Shown here piece by piece: positions 37,331 to 45,513 of a stretch of DNA of 45,513 bases (positions are counted from its first letter, which is position 1; the number at the start of each line of letters is the position of its first letter). Under the pieces are notes generated by a model. It was given only the letters and a program-made list of their open reading frames with translations, did not search any database and was not told where the DNA came from. This DNA is from Oscillospiraceae bacterium (lineage in GTDB: Bacteria; Bacillota; Clostridia; Oscillospirales; Ruminococcaceae), in the NCBI GenBank assembly GCA_024684395.1, contig JAIKWY010000216.1, positions 1-45,513 of the forward strand. The letters run 5' to 3'. The position numbers were made by a program, and so were the translations under genes.

Positions 37331-39916
37331 TTACAGATAGTGCCGGATCCATTTGAGATAGAACTTTCGGACAGGAGATGCCGTATCATAGAGCTTTTTG
37401 GCGAGCTCCCGGCAGGTGCGGATCAGGAGCTTGCGGTCTTCAACGGTCAGCGCGTGCGGACTGTAGCGAAGCCGTTTGCCGACATCGAGCGCCGCATCAA
37501 GCTGCTCCAGTGAAAACAGACCGATACATGCGGTATGCACCTCGGACATAAGGTCGGCTGCCGTGGTGACATCCGTATCGGCACCGCATTCCTTGAGCAG
37601 CTTCATCAGCCACTGCCATGCCGCAGCAGCGCCCTTCTTGCTGCGCAATGCCCGGATGCGGACACGCAGTGCGATCTGTCTTGCCGCCGCAAAGCCGAGC
37701 AGGATCATGCCGATCGTCAGCAGCACGAGCAAGATCACCCAGACGGCGCCGTTCGTGCCTTCGGGCTCCTCCACAAGCTCGGTGGGGGATTCATCCGTCC
37801 CGGACTGCTGGTGTACGGGCTCGGTCTGGCGTTCGGTCGGCGTCTGTGCCTGACCGTGATCCGTGGCAGGCTCGGTCGGTGCCGGCGGTTCCGTCGGTTT
37901 CTCACGGATGAAGACCGGCGGCGTGAAGTAGGAGTAGGTAAATTCAAACGGGATCCAGCCGATGCCGTCGATGTAGACCTCGCACCAGGCATGGGCGTTG
38001 CTGTCGAGGATCTCGGTGACATAGGCACCGTTCTCCTCGGTATACATCCCGTCGATCATGTAGCCCTCGCAGTAGCGTGCCGGGATGCCCGCCATCCGGG
38101 AAAGCAGCACGGCAGCGGTCGCATAGTGCGTGCAGTAGCCCTTTTTGTTATCAAGCAGGAAATAGCTGACAAAATCCGCATTGTCCGGCGTTTTGCCCGG
38201 TGCAAGCGAATACTCCACCTCATCGCAGAGCCGTTCCCGCAGGAGCTGGAGCTCCACGATCTTCTCCGGCGGCGTGGCGGTCTGTGCATCGAAGCTGTCG
38301 AGCAGATCGGCATAGGGCTCCCGGATGGCTGCCATTTCGGCTGTTTCGGGCAGTGTAAGATAATGCTCCCGCACAAAATCCCCATAGCCGCAAGCGCCTA
38401 ACACCGCCGCTTCCACGCCTGTCCGGGGCAGTGTCGCCACATCGTTCAGGACAAGGAGATCCTCGGGGATGCAGAGCGTCTCGTCCCTCCGATCCTCTGT
38501 CAGCGGCGTCAGGGCAGATGCATGGACGGGCGGACAGTAGTCCTCGAGCGTCCCGACATCCGTATCCATATAGCGTCCGAGCAGAACAAGATATTCATAG
38601 TCCATGCCGCCCGAGAAGGTATAGTCGAGCGTCTGGGTCTGTGCGATGCGGTCATTCGTGCAGAGGATCCGGCTGTCCTTCGCAAAGCCATAGGGGATGC
38701 ACTGCTGCAGCGTCGGATCGGGGTTTTCGAGCGTCATCCCGAGCAGGTGTCCGCCCAGCGGTACCGCCGTGCTGCAAAGGAACTCCGGCGGGTAGTAATC
38801 GAGCTTCCGGAACGTGTCAAAGACGGGCTCCCTGAAGGCGCTGTCCGGGAGACGGCTCCAGGTGCTGTTGCCGTAGATGTCGTAGGTCGCATATTTCAGA
38901 TAGATGCGGCTCTGCGGCTTTTCCGTGAAGAGGATGCGGGAAACGGCTGTGTTCTCGAACTCCCGCTTGTCATTGCTGGTGAGATCGACCTCATCCTCCG
39001 CTTCGGTGCCGGGGAGCTTCGGGAGGAAGTCCGGCACGAGCGTGGACAGGTCGTTGAGGTCGATGGAAGCCGCATAGTGCTGGAAATCGCTGCGCATCTG
39101 CTTAACACGCATCGGGCGCTCGTAGTGCATGGCGTTCAGCGTCCCCTCGCAGACCAGCGCCATGCCGAGAACGGCAAGCGCCGTCAGGACACCGGCGAAC
39201 TCCGGCAGCAGAAAGCGCATATCCGTCACGGGGAAGAAGATATTGTGCCGCCGCAGGAAGCCGCCCTTTCCGGTCTTGCGGTAGCTGCCGTAGCCGGCAA
39301 GCTGCACGGCGCCCATCCCGCACCAGAACGCAAACAGCCCGAACGCCGGGAGATGCTCCGGTGCGATGCCAAAGAAAAATCCGATCTCGGCAAAGGGAAA
39401 TGTCACGAGCAGGCTCAGGAAGAAATTCTGGTAGCGCATGACGGCATAGCTCAGCAGCCACAGCACCGGCACGGCGGCAACACAGATCAGGAAGGTCGTG
39501 CAGAGCTCCGGGGAGAGCTCGCTTTCGACCTCGAAAAAGTCCCAGTCGGTCATGTAGATCGTCCGGTAGGCGGCATTGAGCAGGTGCAGCATCCCCACAG
39601 CGGCGCAGTTCCGCTGCAATAAGGCTGTCACGGCAAAGGCACCGAGAAAGACTGCCATCGTGGGATGGATCGAGGTCGTGCGCTCGGCGTGCCAGCAGAA
39701 AAACAGCATCAGTGCGATAGTACAGAGCAGGATCACCGGGACATTGCAGGGCGGTGAGAACATGCTCAGCAGCGTGACGATGCTGCTCACGGCGCCGAGC
39801 AGCGCCAGCAGTACGAGCTGAAAACGGCTTCGTACAGGGCTTTTGCGCTGCAGAGCCATCGTCAGGACATTATCGACCTTGACACCGGACTCTGACGGCT
39901 GCGCATTCTGATTCAT
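37331..39916 (-). CDS. transglutaminase-like membrane protein
   Basis: An 861-residue protein: N-terminal membrane region of several helices (about 30-260), a large extracellular region with a transglutaminase/cysteine-protease fold (about 520-690), a Pro/Thr/Glu-rich stretch, a further helix (about 700-725) and a cytoplasmic tail. The catalytic set is visible: Cys in GYCTHYATAAVLLSRMAGIP, His in NAHAWCEVYI, and an acidic residue further on. AAGGAG lies 9 bases before the ATG at 39916. With moxR and DUF58 it forms a well-known triad, thought to act on the cell envelope; the substrate is unknown. Confidence 0.9.
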   Translation of the reverse strand: MNQNAQPSESGVKVDNVLTMALQRKSPVRSRFQLVLLALLGAVSSIVTLLSMFSPPCNVPVILLCTIALMLFFCWHAERTTSIHPTMAVFLGAFAVTALLQRNCAAVGMLHLLNAAYRTIYMTDWDFFEVESELSPELCTTFLICVAAVPVLWLLSYAVMRYQNFFLSLLVTFPFAEIGFFFGIAPEHLPAFGLFAFWCGMGAVQLAGYGSYRKTGKGGFLRRHNIFFPVTDMRFLLPEFAGVLTALAVLGMALVCEGTLNAMHYERPMRVKQMRSDFQHYAASIDLNDLSTLVPDFLPKLPGTEAEDEVDLTSNDKREFENTAVSRILFTEKPQSRIYLKYATYDIYGNSTWSRLPDSAFREPVFDTFRKLDYYPPEFLCSTAVPLGGHLLGMTLENPDPTLQQCIPYGFAKDSRILCTNDRIAQTQTLDYTFSGGMDYEYLVLLGRYMDTDVGTLEDYCPPVHASALTPLTEDRRDETLCIPEDLLVLNDVATLPRTGVEAAVLGACGYGDFVREHYLTLPETAEMAAIREPYADLLDSFDAQTATPPEKIVELQLLRERLCDEVEYSLAPGKTPDNADFVSYFLLDNKKGYCTHYATAAVLLSRMAGIPARYCEGYMIDGMYTEENGAYVTEILDSNAHAWCEVYIDGIGWIPFEFTYSYFTPPVFIREKPTEPPAPTEPATDHGQAQTPTERQTEPVHQQSGTDESPTELVEEPEGTNGAVWVILLVLLTIGMILLGFAAARQIALRVRIRALRSKKGAAAAWQWLMKLLKECGADTDVTTAADLMSEVHTACIGLFSLEQLDAALDVGKRLRYSPHALTVEDRKLLIRTCRELAKKLYDTASPVRKFYLKWIRHYL

Positions 39917-39933
39917 AGGAAAAAGCTCCTTAT

Positions 39934-41088
39934 TTATAGGATAAGCAGATCCAGCGACGGTTCCGCCGGATCCACACAGTGCAGAGTGATATTTCTCGCC
40001 GACAGTGCCGGGGGCTCCTTGCTGATGCAGATGAGATTCCGGCAATTCGCCTGTACATCCTCCGTCAGGAAGCCCGTCAGGACGGGATCGGGATCGTTCG
40101 TCAGCACCGTGGCGGAGGAATAGGGCATGGCGGAGAATGTCTCCCGTGCCGCTTCCGCATTGGTGCGCAGCGAATACAGACAGTCATACAGCGCCGCAAA
40201 GGCAGCATCGAGCTCCTCGAGCGTTTCCGGCTTGTGCAGCTGAACGGTTCCGGTGCGGCTGTCCGTCCATGCCAGATCACAGATATACCCGCCGCCGACC
40301 AGCGCATGGGCGATGGAATAGCTGAACTTCACCAGCGTCTCCGCCGTCAGCAGATCCTTGACGGGATGGTATTCAAGATAGAGCAGGCAGTTCTTCCGGA
40401 TGGGCGCACTGAAATCCTTCACGAGTAGCTCCTCGGAACGGGAGCTCAGCTTCCAGTGCATCCGGCTCACCTGGTCGCCGGGGCGGTATTCCCGGATAGC
40501 GAACACCTCAGACGGATCCTCGCCCGCCTTGCCGGAAAAACGCTCGCCGTCCGGCTGTTCCACCGGGGGCGCACCGTCCTGCAAAGGCAGGCTGAGCGGC
40601 TCCGGCAGCACGAGCAGCGTGGTGGTATCCACCGTCCGGCGGAGATTCGTCCGGAACAGGCAGAAAATATCATATGCACGCAGCTTCTTCACCCGGATCT
40701 CCACAATGCCGCAGCGGTCGGCTGTGACATAGAACGTCAGGCGGGTGACATTGCGGGCTTGCAGCGGGAATTTCATGCGCACCGTCTCACATTTCCGGGA
40801 AAAGGAATGGCGGACTGTCAGCTCCGCCTCTGCCCTTGGAAAAGCAAACGGGCACTTGCTCTCGATCAGCAGCGTCACGGGAACGGAATCGCCGACCCGG
40901 CAGCCGCCCCGGCGGAAGCAGAGCTCACTGGCGGAGGTAAAATGCAGCCAGAACAGCGCCGTCCGCAGGATAATTGGTATCACGAGCAGGCAGACCAGCA
41001 CCACGAGCGGGAACGAGTCGATAAATAGCACATAGAATACGACGATGGAGATGACCAGCGCCGCATACATCAGTTTCGCCCTGACCAT
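39934..41088 (-). CDS. DUF58 protein
   Basis: A 384-residue protein with two N-terminal membrane segments (about 7-42) and a C-terminal DUF58 domain. The family signature is clear: FAIREYRPGDQVSRMHWKLS (about 217-236), followed by LLVKDF. DUF58 domains relate to von Willebrand A folds and occur with MoxR ATPases. Start ATG overlaps the moxR stop by one base (TGATG), no clear ribosome binding site, so it is translated by coupling. Confidence 0.92.
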   Translation of the reverse strand: MVRAKLMYAALVISIVVFYVLFIDSFPLVVLVCLLVIPIILRTALFWLHFTSASELCFRRGGCRVGDSVPVTLLIESKCPFAFPRAEAELTVRHSFSRKCETVRMKFPLQARNVTRLTFYVTADRCGIVEIRVKKLRAYDIFCLFRTNLRRTVDTTTLLVLPEPLSLPLQDGAPPVEQPDGERFSGKAGEDPSEVFAIREYRPGDQVSRMHWKLSSRSEELLVKDFSAPIRKNCLLYLEYHPVKDLLTAETLVKFSYSIAHALVGGGYICDLAWTDSRTGTVQLHKPETLEELDAAFAALYDCLYSLRTNAEAARETFSAMPYSSATVLTNDPDPVLTGFLTEDVQANCRNLICISKEPPALSARNITLHCVDPAEPSLDLLIL

Positions 41089-42080
41089 CAGTCCGTCCAG
41101 GGCAGCGGCGTGGTCTGGAGCACCTCACGCACGATGGCAGCCGCCGCAGCGGGATCCTCGCCCGTGCCGTGCAGCAGCATCCGGTGGCAGAAGACATCCG
41201 GGCAGACGAAGACAATATCATCCGGCAGCAGATAATCCCGTCCCTGTGCAAATGCGGATGCCTTCGCCATCTGCATGAGCGCCAGTGACCCTCTCGGGCT
41301 GATGCCGAGGCGGAGGGAAGGATGGTTCCGGGTGGCATTCGTCAGGGCGACGATATAGGCATACAGGCTGTCGCTGACATAGACCTGCTCTACTTCACGC
41401 CGCAGCACGGCAAGCGCTGCCGCATCGGCAACACGCTCCACGGTATCGAGCGGATTGCCCGACTGCCGTGCCTTCAGCAGTGCGATCTCATGCGCCGCCC
41501 CCGGATAGCCGAGGGAGAGCCGCACCAGAAAGCGGTCAAGCTGCGACTCCGGCAGTCTCTGGGTGCCGACGCAGTTGATGGGATTCTGGGTCGCAATGAC
41601 GATATGGGGCGAGGGCAGCGGATGGGTCACGCCGTCGATGGTGACAGCGCCCTCCTCCATCAGTTCGAGCAGCGCCGACTGCGTTTTGCTGGAGGTACGG
41701 TTGATCTCATCGGCAAGGAGCAGATTGCAGAAGGCAGCGCCCTCCTTGAAGATAAAACGATCCTGCTCCTTGTTATACATCGTAAAGCCGACCACATCCG
41801 TCGGCAGGACATCCGGTGTGAACTGGATGCGCTTGCAGGAGAGGTCGAGCGTGCGGGAAATGGCAAGTGCCAGCGTGGTCTTGCCGACACCGGGCATATC
41901 TTCGAGCAGGATATGACCGCCGGCGAGGATCGCCAGCAGGATCTTATAGATCACATCGTCCTTGCCGTTGACGGCTTTGCCGATCTCGGCGAGCATCTCC
42001 CGGAGAAACGGGTTCACCGGACGAGCCTGCGCCATCGAAGCGGTCTCACGGACGGATGGTCTGTCTTTTGACTTTGGCAT
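41088..42080 (-). CDS. MoxR-family AAA+ ATPase
   Basis: Chaperone-type ATPase, first gene of the triad. In 330 residues: Walker A GVGKTTLALA, Walker B LLLADEINRT, sensor 1 ATQNP, arginine-finger region LDRFLVRLSLGYPG. MoxR proteins are thought to fold or activate partner proteins with VWA-like domains, such as the DUF58 protein here. ATG at 42080 has AAAGGA 9 bases upstream; an ATG at 42098 lies before that site and is not used. A promoter lies at 42122-42150. All five genes down to dnaI are tightly spaced. Confidence 0.94.
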   Translation of the reverse strand: MPKSKDRPSVRETASMAQARPVNPFLREMLAEIGKAVNGKDDVIYKILLAILAGGHILLEDMPGVGKTTLALAISRTLDLSCKRIQFTPDVLPTDVVGFTMYNKEQDRFIFKEGAAFCNLLLADEINRTSSKTQSALLELMEEGAVTIDGVTHPLPSPHIVIATQNPINCVGTQRLPESQLDRFLVRLSLGYPGAAHEIALLKARQSGNPLDTVERVADAAALAVLRREVEQVYVSDSLYAYIVALTNATRNHPSLRLGISPRGSLALMQMAKASAFAQGRDYLLPDDIVFVCPDVFCHRMLLHGTGEDPAAAAAIVREVLQTTPLPWTD

Positions 42081-42121
42081 GGGATCGATTCCTTTCATAT
42101 GCAGCTTACAGTTACCTATTT

Positions 42122-42411: not shown

Positions 42412-43344
42412 TTACACGGGCGGCATCTGTACCGGGTGATCAGGCAATTTCACGGGCGCTTCCGCCGGCGGCACAGGGACAGTATCTGCCGGGGCAGGCT
42501 TTTCCTCTGCGGGCGCTTCGGGCGGAAGCGGGGGCTCCGGCGGGGTCTCCGTACCGGGCTCCGGCGGGGTAACGGGCGCAGGATCCTGTGCAGGCGTTTC
42601 CGGCTTGACCGGTGGCTCTGCCGGAGCAGGCGGCTCGACCTTCGGATCATGCGGTGCCGGCGGGGCAGGTTCTTCCTTCCCGGGCTGCGGCGGGGCTGGC
42701 GGTTCTTCCTTGCCATCCGGCGGCGCAGGTGCCACAGGCGGCTCTGCCGGGGCAGCAGGCGGAACAGGCGCCTGATCCAGTTCGCCGTGGACATCCGCTT
42801 GCAGCTCATGCGATGCAATGGACTGCTCCACCGTCTTCTCGAACTGCTCGGGATCCTTGTTTTTTTCCTTCTGATAATATACGCCAACGGTATCGCCCTT
42901 CTGGACAACGCCGTTTTCTACGGCACGTTCGATCAGCTCGCTGGTGACGGTGACCGGATCCTTGCCGCTGCATGTATAATCGGAGAGCAGCAGTGCCGCA
43001 TCCTGGTTGAGCGGCTGCACGGAAAGCACCTTGCCGCTGCGGCTGACCTCCATGCAGAGATTCGCCTCATCGGCACATACCATGACAGAAGAATACGGCG
43101 TATAATTCCCACGGTAATACAGTGCGCCGCCGCCAAGCATCAGGACAGCACAGGCTGCCACGGCGATACAGCGCTTCATGGTGACGCTGATGCGGGGCGC
43201 AGCCGTTTCCGGCTCCTGCAACAGCACTGGGTTTTCCACAGTCTGTCCGACCTCGTAATGCAGATTTGCCGCATACACGACCTGCGAAGCCTCGTCCATG
43301 AGGATGGCGTATGCCTTGTGACATTCCATGACCATATATTTCAC
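42412..43344 (-). CDS. rsgI: RsgI-type anti-sigma factor with Pro-rich ectodomain
   Basis: Membrane anti-sigma factor that holds SigI. The 310 residues: N-terminal cytoplasmic RsgI domain (about 3-40), one membrane helix (about 58-77), a juxtamembrane domain (about 82-185) with VSRSGKVLSVQPLN like the RsgI family, and a Pro/Glu/Ala tail (about 191-310; PEPPLPPEAP-type motifs). In Clostridium, RsgI tails are often carbohydrate-binding or enzyme modules; none is present. The Asn-Pro pair at which RsgI proteins self-cleave is not seen at the expected place (ADEANLCMEV). Start GTG at 43344, 9 bases after GGGAGG, overlaps the sigI stop by four bases. The membrane layout, family pattern and partner gene make the call firm. 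Confidence 0.88.
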   Translation of the reverse strand: MKYMVMECHKAYAILMDEASQVVYAANLHYEVGQTVENPVLLQEPETAAPRISVTMKRCIAVAACAVLMLGGGALYYRGNYTPYSSVMVCADEANLCMEVSRSGKVLSVQPLNQDAALLLSDYTCSGKDPVTVTSELIERAVENGVVQKGDTVGVYYQKEKNKDPEQFEKTVEQSIASHELQADVHGELDQAPVPPAAPAEPPVAPAPPDGKEEPPAPPQPGKEEPAPPAPHDPKVEPPAPAEPPVKPETPAQDPAPVTPPEPGTETPPEPPLPPEAPAEEKPAPADTVPVPPAEAPVKLPDHPVQMPPV

Positions 43345-44072
43345 GATGCTTCGCCTCCCTTCAATACCTGCATGATATGTCCACGCATGATCTCATAGCC
43401 GTTCGTGCAGACCAGCAGCACAGCCACAAGATAACGCCGGTGTCGTTCCAATGTCTTTTTCTCCACGCCTGCGCCCTCTGCCAGTCTCGTGAGCGGCACA
43501 CGCTTCGTGCGGAGAAATTCATCCAATACATCCTTATTGTTCCGTGCGTAGCAGACGGCTTTCTGACAGGCTGCCAGTGTGCGCTGCTGCTGGGGCGCAT
43601 TGTCCGCCACATCGGTCAGCTTCACGCCGAACTCCTCCATCTGGGCGGTGAGATGTGCGATCTCCTGCCGTGTGGCTTCCCGGACGCCAAACTCCTCGAA
43701 CGGGCGGCTCTCGTCCTGCACGGTATCCATGAGCGTCAGACCGTCCTCCTCGCTGCCGATGGGCGCATCGAGGGAGACCTGCCCCTGATGCCGCCGCTCC
43801 TTGCGGTAGTTATCGATGAGCCGGGAACGGATCTGGAGCGCTGCATATTTCAGAAATGCGCCTTTGAGCGGAGAATAGCTCCGGATTGCCTCATAGAACG
43901 CAAACATGGCGATGCTCAGCTCGTCATCCTCCGGGGAGGGATCACGCTTGAGGAACTTCGAGGTTTCCGACCGGATGAAGGGCATATACTGCTCGATCAG
44001 CCGATCACACGCCCTGGGATCCTTTTTGGCTTCATTGATCTCAGCCAGAAGCCGGTGTACATCAAGCTTCAT
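43341..44072 (-). CDS. sigI: RNA polymerase sigma factor SigI
   Basis: A 243-residue alternative sigma factor. Sigma-70 region 2 lies at about 20-95 (LIEQYMPFIRSETSKFL, DELSIAMFAFYEAIRSY, IRSRLIDNYRKERR). The SigI-specific C-terminal domain follows: an EIAHLTAQMEEFGVKLTDVA segment matching the EI-x-x-(L/F)-x-x-x-L-x-x-FG pattern, then a helix-turn-helix near RTLAACQKAV to VEKKTLERHRRYLVA. In Bacillus SigI responds to heat; in cellulolytic clostridia SigI factors with RsgI partners turn on cellulosome genes. Two upstream promoters are visible: sigma-A type (44180-44208) and SigI-like (44099-44126). AGAGAGGT lies 7 bases before the ATG. Confidence 0.93.
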   Translation of the reverse strand: MKLDVHRLLAEINEAKKDPRACDRLIEQYMPFIRSETSKFLKRDPSPEDDELSIAMFAFYEAIRSYSPLKGAFLKYAALQIRSRLIDNYRKERRHQGQVSLDAPIGSEEDGLTLMDTVQDESRPFEEFGVREATRQEIAHLTAQMEEFGVKLTDVADNAPQQQRTLAACQKAVCYARNNKDVLDEFLRTKRVPLTRLAEGAGVEKKTLERHRRYLVAVLLVCTNGYEIMRGHIMQVLKGGEAS

Positions 44073-44098
44073 ATGCTGTACCTCTCTATGCTATAGTA

Positions 44099-44126
44099 TA
44101 CGCACCGTATTTTTCAAAAACAGGGT
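44099..44126 (-). promoter_or_regulatory. candidate SigI-dependent promoter of sigI
   Basis: On the minus strand ACCC (44123-44126), 20 bases, CGTA (44099-44102). Bacillus SigI promoters have ACCCCC and CGAA boxes, and clostridial ones CGWA-type -10 boxes. The same arrangement precedes the divergent gene at 44320. It lies inside an imperfect hairpin (44102-44128). Confidence 0.5.
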
Positions 44127-44179
44127 GCTGACAAAAATTTATCTGAAAAAGTCGGATCTTGTTCGTCTGATTTATTATC

Positions 44180-44208
44180 AGTATAGCAGAATCATTCCGG
44201 GCTGTCAA
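44180..44208 (-). promoter_or_regulatory. sigma-A promoter of sigI-rsgI
   Basis: TTGACA (44203-44208), 17-base spacer, TATACT (44180-44185) with extended TGC, minus strand. It would give basal expression of the pair with a leader of about 100 bases. Confidence 0.8.
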
Positions 44209-44290
44209 GCAAAACGGGGTCCCCGGGAGCCTGCGCAAAAACTTTTTTGCATAAATATATGGCAATATATCTTGATTTTTTTCGATAGCG

Positions 44291-44347
44291 TAATTTTTTT
44301 TGAAAAAATTATGAGAAAGACCCCGTTTTCCGAAATCGTTTTCCGTA
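44291..44347 (+). promoter_or_regulatory. candidate SigI-dependent promoter of the Pro-rich repeat gene
   Basis: ACCC (44320-44323, part of ACCCCG), 20 bases, CGTA (44344-44347), the same spacing as upstream of sigI. The spacers share a GTTTT..GAAA pattern. Just upstream is an AT-rich palindrome, TAATTTTTT/AAAAAATTA (44291-44311). No good sigma-A promoter is visible for this gene between 44209 and 44435. Confidence 0.5.
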
Positions 44348-44435
44348 ACCTGTTAGTACAAGCAAAACAAAGCCGATGTCCTTGGAGAGGGACGTAAAAC
44401 ACTACTACATTTTAATGAAATCGAGGAGAACGATC

Positions 44436-45513
44436 ATGAGCAACAAAAAAAGACAGATCCTTGCGGCGCTGACTGTCGCATCTGCGATCGCTATGGTCGG
44501 CGGTGTCTCTGCATACGCAGCAGAGGAAGAGACCGCTGAGCCGGTGGATGCAGCTGTAGAAGCTACCGACGCTGCTGAGGAAGCACCTGCGGAAGAGACC
44601 CCGGCTGAGGAAGCAGAGGAGACCGCTGAGGAGAAGGAAGAGCCCGCAGCTCCGGCACCGGAGGCTGTAGATGCTTTCGATCTCGAAGTACCGGCACCGG
44701 CTGTAGCACCGGAAGAGGATGCTGAGAAGCCCGAGCCGCCGGCACCGGTAGCACCGGAAGACGCTGAGCTCCCTGAGCCGCCCGAGGTTCCTGTAGCTCC
44801 GGAAGATGCTGAGCTCCCTGAGCCGCCGGCACCGCCTGTTGCTCCGGAAGATGCTGAGCTCCCTGAGCCGCCCGAGGCTCCTGTAGCACCGGAAGACGCT
44901 GAGCTCCCTGAGCTGCCCGAGGCTCCTGTAGCTCCGGAAGACGCAGAGCTCCCTGAGCCGCCCGAGGCTCCTGTAGCTCCGGAAGACGCTGAGCTCCCTG
45001 AGCCGCCGGCACCGCCGGTTGCTCCGGATGAGACTGAGCGTCCCGAGCCGCCGGCACCGCCTGCTCCGCTGGCACCTCCGCCTCACGAAGCAGTTGAGTG
45101 GTTCGACATCGCAGGTCCGAAGCATCCGGCACCGCCTGCTCCGCACGTAGCACCGGATGAGGCTGAGAAGCCCGAGCCGCCGGCACTGCCTGTAGCTCCG
45201 GAAGATGCTGAGCTCCCTGAGCCGCCGGCACCGCCTGTTGCTCCGGAAGATGCTGAGCTCCCTGAGCCGCCGGCACCGCCTGTTGCTCCGGAAGAAATCG
45301 AAGCTCCCGAAGCTCCTATAGCTCCGGAAGAGGGCGAGCTCCCTGAGCCGCCGGCACCGCCTGTTGCTCCGGAAGGGGTTGAAGCTCCTGAGGCTCCCGA
45401 GGCTCCTGTAGCTCCGGAAGAGGTTGAGGCACCTGAGGCTCCCGAGGCTCCTGTAGCACCGGAAGAGGTTGAAGCACCTGAGGCTCCCGAGGCTCCTGTA
45501 GCTCCGGAAGAGG
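44436..45513 (+). CDS. secreted Pro/Glu/Ala tandem-repeat protein, runs off right edge
   Basis: The first 359 residues of a longer protein. A signal peptide (1-28, ending VSAYA) is followed by an acidic Ala/Glu segment (29-75) and then, from about 91, a 15-residue repeat of the type APEDAELPEPPEAPV. Toward the edge the unit becomes APEEVEAPEAPEAPV. One non-repeat stretch, HEAVEWFDIAGPKH (217-230), interrupts the array. Proline every second or third residue implies a stiff, extended rod; no Cys and few positive charges. GAGGAG lies 7 bases before the ATG at 44436; an in-frame ATG at 44415 precedes that site. A cell-wall-spanning or fibre protein is likely; any anchor or functional head would lie beyond the window. 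The open frame on the opposite strand is a shadow. Confidence 0.88.
   Translation, partial: MSNKKRQILAALTVASAIAMVGGVSAYAAEEETAEPVDAAVEATDAAEEAPAEETPAEEAEETAEEKEEPAAPAPEAVDAFDLEVPAPAVAPEEDAEKPEPPAPVAPEDAELPEPPEVPVAPEDAELPEPPAPPVAPEDAELPEPPEAPVAPEDAELPELPEAPVAPEDAELPEPPEAPVAPEDAELPEPPAPPVAPDETERPEPPAPPAPLAPPPHEAVEWFDIAGPKHPAPPAPHVAPDEAEKPEPPALPVAPEDAELPEPPAPPVAPEDAELPEPPAPPVAPEEIEAPEAPIAPEEGELPEPPAPPVAPEGVEAPEAPEAPVAPEEVEAPEAPEAPVAPEEVEAPEAPEAPVAPEE
44706..45513 (+). repeat. 45-bp tandem repeat array
   Basis: Units of 45 bp (15 codons) encoding the Pro-rich repeats; the core GAAGATGCTGAGCTCCCTGA recurs many times with small changes. The last three units in the window are almost identical and the window ends inside one. 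Recombination between units, and assembly errors, are likely here. Confidence 0.9.

Follow-up and report, generated by a model that had tools for sequence, protein, structure and literature searches.

Which genes does a SigI-type sigma factor control when it is encoded beside a gene for a proline-rich repeat protein, and what does its membrane partner RsgI respond to? These questions are raised by the right-hand end of the window, i.e., the whole stretch of 45,513 nucleotides that was analyzed (G000:C132:1-45513), taken from an Oscillospiraceae genome of 4.21 Mb. Here, sigI (43341-44072, minus strand), encoding an alternative sigma factor of 243 residues, overlaps by 4 base pairs (bp) with rsgI (42412-43344, minus strand, GTG start), encoding a membrane anti-sigma factor of 310 residues. 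A divergent gene (44436-45513, plus strand, running off the contig) encodes an exported protein of 15-residue repeats rich in Pro, Glu, and Ala (P/E/A). A preliminary description of the locus had listed the overlap, an RsgI tail of about 120 P/E/A-rich residues and the divergent gene with its signal peptide and repeats, all of which were confirmed.

The results favor a self-contained SigI/RsgI cassette that has a single dedicated output, similar to the outside part of the sensor, and probably serves envelope homeostasis (probability roughly 0.6). The predicted control of the repeat gene by SigI is strongly supported, as are the two SigI-type motifs, the fact that they stand almost nowhere else in the genome, and the conservation of the gene pairing, all at the level of sequence.

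Predicted SigI-type promoters and the genes they face

A motif was learned from the 150 bp before sigI in 81 loci, i.e., the window and the best 80 of 119 relatives of the window SigI in named genomes, mostly Ruminococcus or Oscillospiraceae. The common motif consists of ACCCCGTTTT, about 14 bases and CGTAWACTAT (short form: ACCCCGTTTT-N14-CGTA). In relaxed form, it was present before sigI in 78 of the 80 loci with enough upstream DNA, versus 3 of 1600 mononucleotide shuffles; the stricter form was found in 48 of 80 loci, 43 of them with a spacer of 14 bases. Motif matches in the window gave a putative autoregulatory promoter of sigI-rsgI (ACCCTGTTTTTGAAAAATACGGTGCGTATACT, 44095-44126, minus strand) and a putative SigI-type promoter of the repeat gene (ACCCCGTTTTCCGAAATCGTTTTCCGTAACCT, 44320-44351, plus strand), located on opposite strands and having identical 14-base spacers. 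The pattern ACCCNNTTTN{11,15}CGWANNCT has exactly two matches in the 4.21-Mb genome, facing sigI and the repeat gene, and the reversed pattern has none. Both matches lie in the window; 100 dinucleotide shuffles of the window yielded none. The earlier proposal that SigI may turn on the repeat gene is supported by this placement.

Among 38 genomes of the genus, the pattern was present in 7 of 7 with this SigI (threshold E 1e-40) and in 2 of the 31 without. Reversed-pattern controls in other sets gave 0 matches versus 10 real ones (30 genomes) and, as counted in the match tables, 0 versus 22 (14 genomes), 21 versus 75 for a loose pattern (50 genomes) and 6 versus 22 for a second loose pattern (11 genomes). 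Because of their reversed-control matches, the two loose patterns were used for discovery only. Twenty motif regions were examined, comprising seven targets, one sigI and 12 cases with other genes or nothing clear (L132, L135, L140-L148, L150). Matches in L202, L203, L234-L237, L250, L252, and L253 were discarded as targets since they look like chance.

The sigma factor itself was identified by NCBIfam, Pfam and solved-structure matches. Solved SigI6 aligns with its residues 12-232 (E 3e-16) and solved SigI1 with residues 20-240 (E 2.9e-15); the SigI1 fragment 6ivu was also matched. Pfam Sigma70_r2 scored 33.3 bits (cut-off 24), and no sigma region-4 family was listed in the Pfam scan. The best NCBIfam matches were SigI models, with all scores under the curated cut-offs (TIGR02895, 150.1 bits versus 185; NF006178, 165.8 bits versus 306), and the protein is therefore regarded as a divergent SigI member or subgroup. 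Two further SigI matches in the same genome were both weak (29-31% identity over approximately residues 15-137). By these searches, the genome holds one SigI and no SigI set.

The repeat gene, predicted to be a SigI target, was delimited by its ATG start, its repeats and the upstream motif. Its N-terminus is signal-peptide-like (translation reading and a hydrophobicity rule), followed by tandem 45-bp repeats encoding 15 residues each (Tandem Repeats Finder score 492, 17.5 copies). The gene has no end in the window and is open at the right edge. Of five matches in the same genome, only that at C47:2-214 has this repeat at high identity (90%). The start of contig C47 (L089:2-502) continues the same repeat frame with further repeats and then a short nonrepeat C-terminus, in which no LPXTG motif was seen on reading the translation. 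The two parts are likely one gene, as suggested by the repeat frame. A join through synteny was dropped: the C47 neighbor gene did not turn up at the loci of four close relatives, three of which have less than 1 kb of DNA upstream of sigI, and the join is therefore drawn from the repeat frame. A close relative (L009, SigI 84% identical) carries a whole repeat gene with, by reading of the sequence, a similar C-terminus.

A sigma-70-like promoter of sigI-rsgI (TTGACA-17-TATACT, 44180-44208, minus strand) was assigned by consensus match only. It has 11 of 12 consensus bases and a TG before the -10, in a region with three such sites versus 1.6 expected; a loose form was found upstream of sigI at 43 of 79 loci. 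It probably provides basal sigI-rsgI expression. Downstream of rsgI (37331-42098, minus strand), genes for a MoxR-type AAA ATPase, a DUF58 protein and a transglutaminase-like membrane protein (Pfam) stand in a row; no SigI motif was found in this interval.

Pairing of SigI with an exported protein in relatives

For the 81 loci, first-pass targets were defined by a signal-peptide-like start and more than 42% P+E+A+D+T+K after residue 30. A motif together with an exported low-complexity protein was found in the same genome for 77 of 81 loci: 70 in the first pass, six more elsewhere in the genome, and one (L046) cut after its first codons. In L011, L015, L038, and L045, the rest of the set, the contig stops next to sigI, in or just after rsgI, or directly behind the motif, and no target was found elsewhere in these genomes with the pattern. 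Among the 70, the target follows rsgI on the same strand in 52 (four of them 3.0-3.5 kb from the sigI start), is divergent in 10, lies on another contig in seven and, in L026, is located approximately 6.4 kb away on the other strand. All 10 divergent genes are faced by a motif, five with the strict and five with a looser pattern. Conservation in relatives, which the preliminary description had proposed as a check, holds for the pairing; the divergent order is a minority arrangement (10 of 70, versus 52 after rsgI). The conserved feature is therefore the pairing, since targets occur in several gene orders, and divergence as the key feature was rejected as one order among several.

The search was extended to 147 genomes of the order. 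SigI-like genes were present in 26, at 28 places, and 20 regions were examined; the remaining places, mostly B. subtilis-like by their tails, lie outside the third-gene comparison. A window-type RsgI was found in 15 of the 20 regions (L179-L193). In 12 of these 15, rsgI is followed by a gene for an exported lipoprotein, with an RsgI_M-like domain by profile in 10 and a PepSY-like domain in two (L190, L193). A motif precedes 10 of these 12 genes. In L186, L187, and L189, belonging to one genus, the neighbor gene encodes a large surface protein instead; each of these genomes has one unlinked site, before a lipoprotein with a domain homologous to the RsgI_M family. Two additional cases, L208 and L209, were found in the wider class. 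No lipoprotein gene was present beside the B. subtilis-like RsgI of L195-L197; the L194 region stops behind rsgI, and no rsgI match was obtained for L198.

The shared domain was confirmed in two ways. On nine of these proteins, including L084 from the first set, Pfam placed RsgI_M above its cut-off in eight and PepSY in seven. A profile of 16 target RsgI_M domains matched the profile of 31 window-type RsgI ectodomains with probability 96 (E 3.4e-9, 101 columns), and a profile of the target lipoproteins matched the solved domain 8t9n (E 6.9e-7).

Some further observations were made on these loci. By reading of the sequence, the L190 RsgI carries a stretch similar to the PepSY domain of its target, a domain whose own match lies below the Pfam cut-off. 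In L188 (G152:C2), four near-identical tandem SigI-type motifs, 105-115 bp apart, precede the RsgI_M lipoprotein gene. The target-like gene of L251 (G005:C128) combines two tandem SigI motifs with a Trp-rich segment. In L140 (G061:C9), two divergent SigI-like motifs with starts approximately 107 bp apart lie between polyphosphate-polymerase-like (VTC-type) and dockerin-like genes, and a gene of similar VTC type comes after that for the RsgI_M lipoprotein in L208; the VTC-type and dockerin names in L140 and L208 come from translation reading, with no family search.

The RsgI sensor and its likeness to the product

RsgI was identified by Pfam, hydrophobicity, AlphaFold2 and a profile search. It has a hydrophobic, membrane-like segment and an RsgI_M (SEAL-like) ectodomain, scoring 48.2 bits versus the Pfam cut-off of 25.3. 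The AlphaFold2 model of the ectodomain was confident (mean predicted local distance difference test score 85.9), and a profile of 31 window-type ectodomains matched six solved RsgI/anti-sigma chains, 8t9n among them at E 1e-8. RsgI_N gave no Pfam match at E of 1 or below in the window RsgI and remained under threshold in one relative (18.2 of 25 bits); the N-terminus is well conserved among the 81 loci.

RsgI_M is the sole Pfam domain of the window RsgI, in which no carbohydrate-binding module (CBM) or other sugar-binding module was detected (Pfam, NCBIfam). Carbohydrate sensing through a CBM was consequently rejected, and the CBM-type RsgI cited as precedent in the preliminary description fits less well than the disordered-tail RsgI of B. 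subtilis. It is likewise very unlikely that the pair acts as in C. thermocellum, with RsgI sensing plant fiber and SigI inducing fiber-degrading or cellulosome surface proteins. Dockerin-like and repeated-module proteins are indeed encoded in the same genome, and looser motifs were found before dockerin-like secreted proteins in L135, L140, L145, and L146 (all by translation reading). Besides the missing module, the single SigI and the lack of a third site in a relaxed motif search of the genome argue against such a role, and the accessible part of PMC11557425 places dedicated RsgI sets only in Acetivibrio-type cellulosome producers. As for the individual loci, L145 and L146 come from the same genomes as L010 and L011, which are closely related to the window, and their dockerin-linked matches are either chance or extra SigI targets. 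On C47, a secreted glycosidase-like protein with a dockerin-like C-terminus (L089:725-2782, minus strand) adjoins the likely end of the repeat gene; elsewhere in the genome, L090 (G000:C91) encodes at least 1389 residues of a protein in which cohesin-like modules recur along with Thr/Glu linkers, and L091:222-632 a small collagen-like GATGATG repeat protein (all by translation reading).

The final 120 residues of the window RsgI contain 68% P+E+A and 40% Pro. P+E+A reaches at least 30% in 80 of 81 RsgI tails, the exception being L088 (22%), and a low-complexity tail occurs at 81 of 81 loci independent of gene order. By sequence comparison, the P/E/A-rich tail is a lineage-wide trait with nothing special to the window locus. 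This ubiquity favors a wall-gap sensor as in B. subtilis, without mimicry, in which the product reinforces or fills the wall and the tails look alike from disorder and a shared wall. Accessible parts of PMC13059805 and PMC10128001 describe a proposal that the disordered outside region of B. subtilis RsgI detects peptidoglycan defects. We consider this explanation possible but doubtful, since in other families sensor and product share a folded domain and a repeat, and tails and targets covary from species to species, as in the aromatic-rich tails of L088.

In the order/class set, where tail starts were set by rule of thumb and the 3 of 18 pairs with target tails under 60 residues were excluded from the means, Asp averages 31% in RsgI tails and 32% in target tails (15 pairs). 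The Ruminococcus-type set (68 pairs) has 7% Asp in both, with Pro at 25% in RsgI tails and 15% in targets. A repeat, DYGPxxDG.T.Y, was found in RsgI as well as the target for 4 of 18 pairs (L182, L184, L185, L192; L182 is closely related to L185, and L184 to L192), only in the target for L084, L180, L183, L188, L191, and L208, and in neither protein of the other eight; Ruminococcus-type proteins showed none.

Tail-target composition was compared in 69 of the 70 first-pass pairs (L010, cut at 92 residues, was dropped; L084, whose target is a lipoprotein, was included). The correlation was 0.34, versus 0.18 at most in 5000 permutations, and 0.30 after G+C correction. The RsgI core, serving as control, gave 0.11 and, after correction, 0.03. 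Independent contrasts on a tree of SigI and the RsgI core gave 0.267, not reached in 5000 sign flips, and 0.047 for the core control. The two most aromatic of the 69 RsgI tails (L088, L084) pair with the two most aromatic targets; without these two loci, the correlation was 0.30, the G+C-corrected value 0.22, and the contrasts 0.253. The earlier statement that sensor tail and product are of one chemical type is true for the window and extends to covariation across species. Compositional coincidence, i.e., SigI control of the gene with the likeness arising only from shared base composition and from features common to secreted proteins, is improbable: the correlation survives correction for G+C and for phylogeny while that of the core falls to 0.03 and 0.047, and in other families a domain and a repeat are common to sensor and product. 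The correlations are moderate, however, and support for single residues is limited to A, G, T, and marginally P, as this explanation would have it.

Several results weigh against a dedicated, sensor-like output. At the level of single residues, covariation is robust for A, G, and T alone; it is marginal for P (p = 0.04, or 0.08 when L084 and L088 are left out) and lacking for E, D, and K, with these p values uncorrected for the testing of many residues. The targets of L190 and L193 have no low-complexity tail though their RsgI has a poly-Asp tail, and the L200 target tail has only a few residues. RsgI_M was not found in the Ruminococcus-type targets tested, so that their link to the lipoproteins is one of position, promoter and chemistry; in the window, tail chemistry is common to sensor and product and the folded domain is not shared. 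In L181 and L184, the lipoprotein gene had no motif in front of it. In the genus search of 38 genomes, the reversed pattern had 19 matches versus 15 for the real one (table counts); because the control outnumbers the real matches there, the weight of the evidence lies in the placement of the matches and not in their number. Genome G005, one of the two genomes of the genus with the pattern but without this SigI, has a target with two motifs and no SigI match at the 1e-40 threshold; its sigma factor may be absent from the assembly. Finally, the looser-pattern matches before dockerin-like proteins make further SigI targets possible.

Proposed loop and comparison with known systems

In the cassette reading, RsgI in the membrane would hold SigI inside the cell, while its folded RsgI_M domain and the long, probably disordered, proline-rich and mostly acidic tail would extend into the envelope. 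A change in the tail or its surroundings, such as wall gaps or a lack of exported product, would lead to cutting of RsgI and release of SigI. Freed SigI would then transcribe sigI-rsgI and the gene for an exported protein of sensor-tail chemistry, which would populate the envelope and damp the signal. It is inferred that SigI itself transcribes these genes, that the signal comes from the envelope and that the product feeds back on RsgI; release of SigI through RsgI proteolysis is suggested by analogy with known pairs. The most economical reading is one of envelope homeostasis, in which the tail would sample the envelope and the product would fill it.

The proteolytic step may differ from that of known pairs. 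An Asn-Pro pair in the RsgI middle domain, which we take to be the known RsgI self-cleavage site, is present at one of 81 loci (L084) and absent from the window and the other 79. Since it is missing at 80 of 81 loci, the first RsgI cut may need another protease in this lineage. A VNPEI stretch that includes the Asn-Pro pair shows no variation in 16 of 16 aligned exported RsgI_M target domains.

A tentative alternative is a decoy-receptor loop, in which the main output would be an exported copy-in-kind of the outside part of the sensor and RsgI would gauge how much look-alike is already in the envelope. The look-alike might compete for the same partner or wall space, or act as a tethered ruler; Ruminococcus and its kin, the window included, would then retain just the tail portion of the mimic.

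In either the cassette reading or this variant, known SigI/RsgI pairs offer the background: these are wall-stress or fiber sensors, with wall or fiber enzymes among their outputs. In a large group of Clostridia, most of them uncultured, they seem to form a minimal closed loop with an output similar to the sensor. What is gained is a promoter code for this divergent subgroup of SigI factors, a predicted regulon of two units that is readily testable, and a natural setting in which to ask how the envelope can be sensed by a low-complexity extracellular tail. Reportedly, tail sensing by B. subtilis RsgI was described by Brunet (2022), RsgI self-cleavage by Chen (2023) and Brogan (2023), and RsgI9 by Takayesu (2024). 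In the literature searched, which covered few subscription papers and included accessible parts of PMC3413522, PMC11557425, and PMC12203970, no description of such a cassette and no mention of RsgI together with PepSY were found. SigI/RsgI pairs as such are known; a cassette with a sensor-like output may be new.

The locus resembles B. subtilis SigI-RsgI in having a single sigma/anti-sigma pair, the RsgI middle domain, a low-complexity region outside and a likely envelope role. The tail composition would fit an RsgI that probes the wall as in B. subtilis, and a sensing role may be proposed by analogy. According to the accessible part of PMC12203970, SigI is held by RsgI until cutting of RsgI, with self-cleavage, sets it free; the middle domain here differs from that of B. 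subtilis in lacking the Asn-Pro pair at nearly all loci. B. subtilis SigI raises mreBH and lytE (PMC10128001, in its accessible text), whereas the recognizable output here is one exported look-alike protein.

The solved RsgI middle (SEAL) domains 8t9n, 8hep, 8heq, 8hdj, 8u9o, and 8her were all matched by the profile of window-type ectodomains. Unlike these, the target domain belongs to a lipoprotein that lacks an anti-sigma part, and PepSY and repeats usually come after the domain.

With the Clostridium (Acetivibrio) thermocellum set, the locus shares the SigI fold, RsgI_M and the promoter type. As expected of SigI factors in general, it has an adjacent anti-sigma gene and an autoregulatory promoter (by motif only) with a CGWA -10. 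It differs from the C. thermocellum set in its single pair and in an RsgI without CBM, PA14 or GH10 sensor module. As far as the accessible parts of PMC6056542 and PMC10575876 go, C. thermocellum SigI promoters have a CG(A/T)A -10 (CGTA for SigI3) and a C-rich -35 with a CCC triad, and those of cellulosome producers an A-tract at the 3' end of the -35. The CGTA -10 of the locus resembles that of SigI3, and CCCC is comparable to the CCC triad. Unlike in the cellulosome producers, CCCC or CCCT is followed in the window and at most loci by a T-rich stretch, which mostly replaces the A-tract; A-runs before sigI occur in a few loci (e.g., L069, L077, L087).

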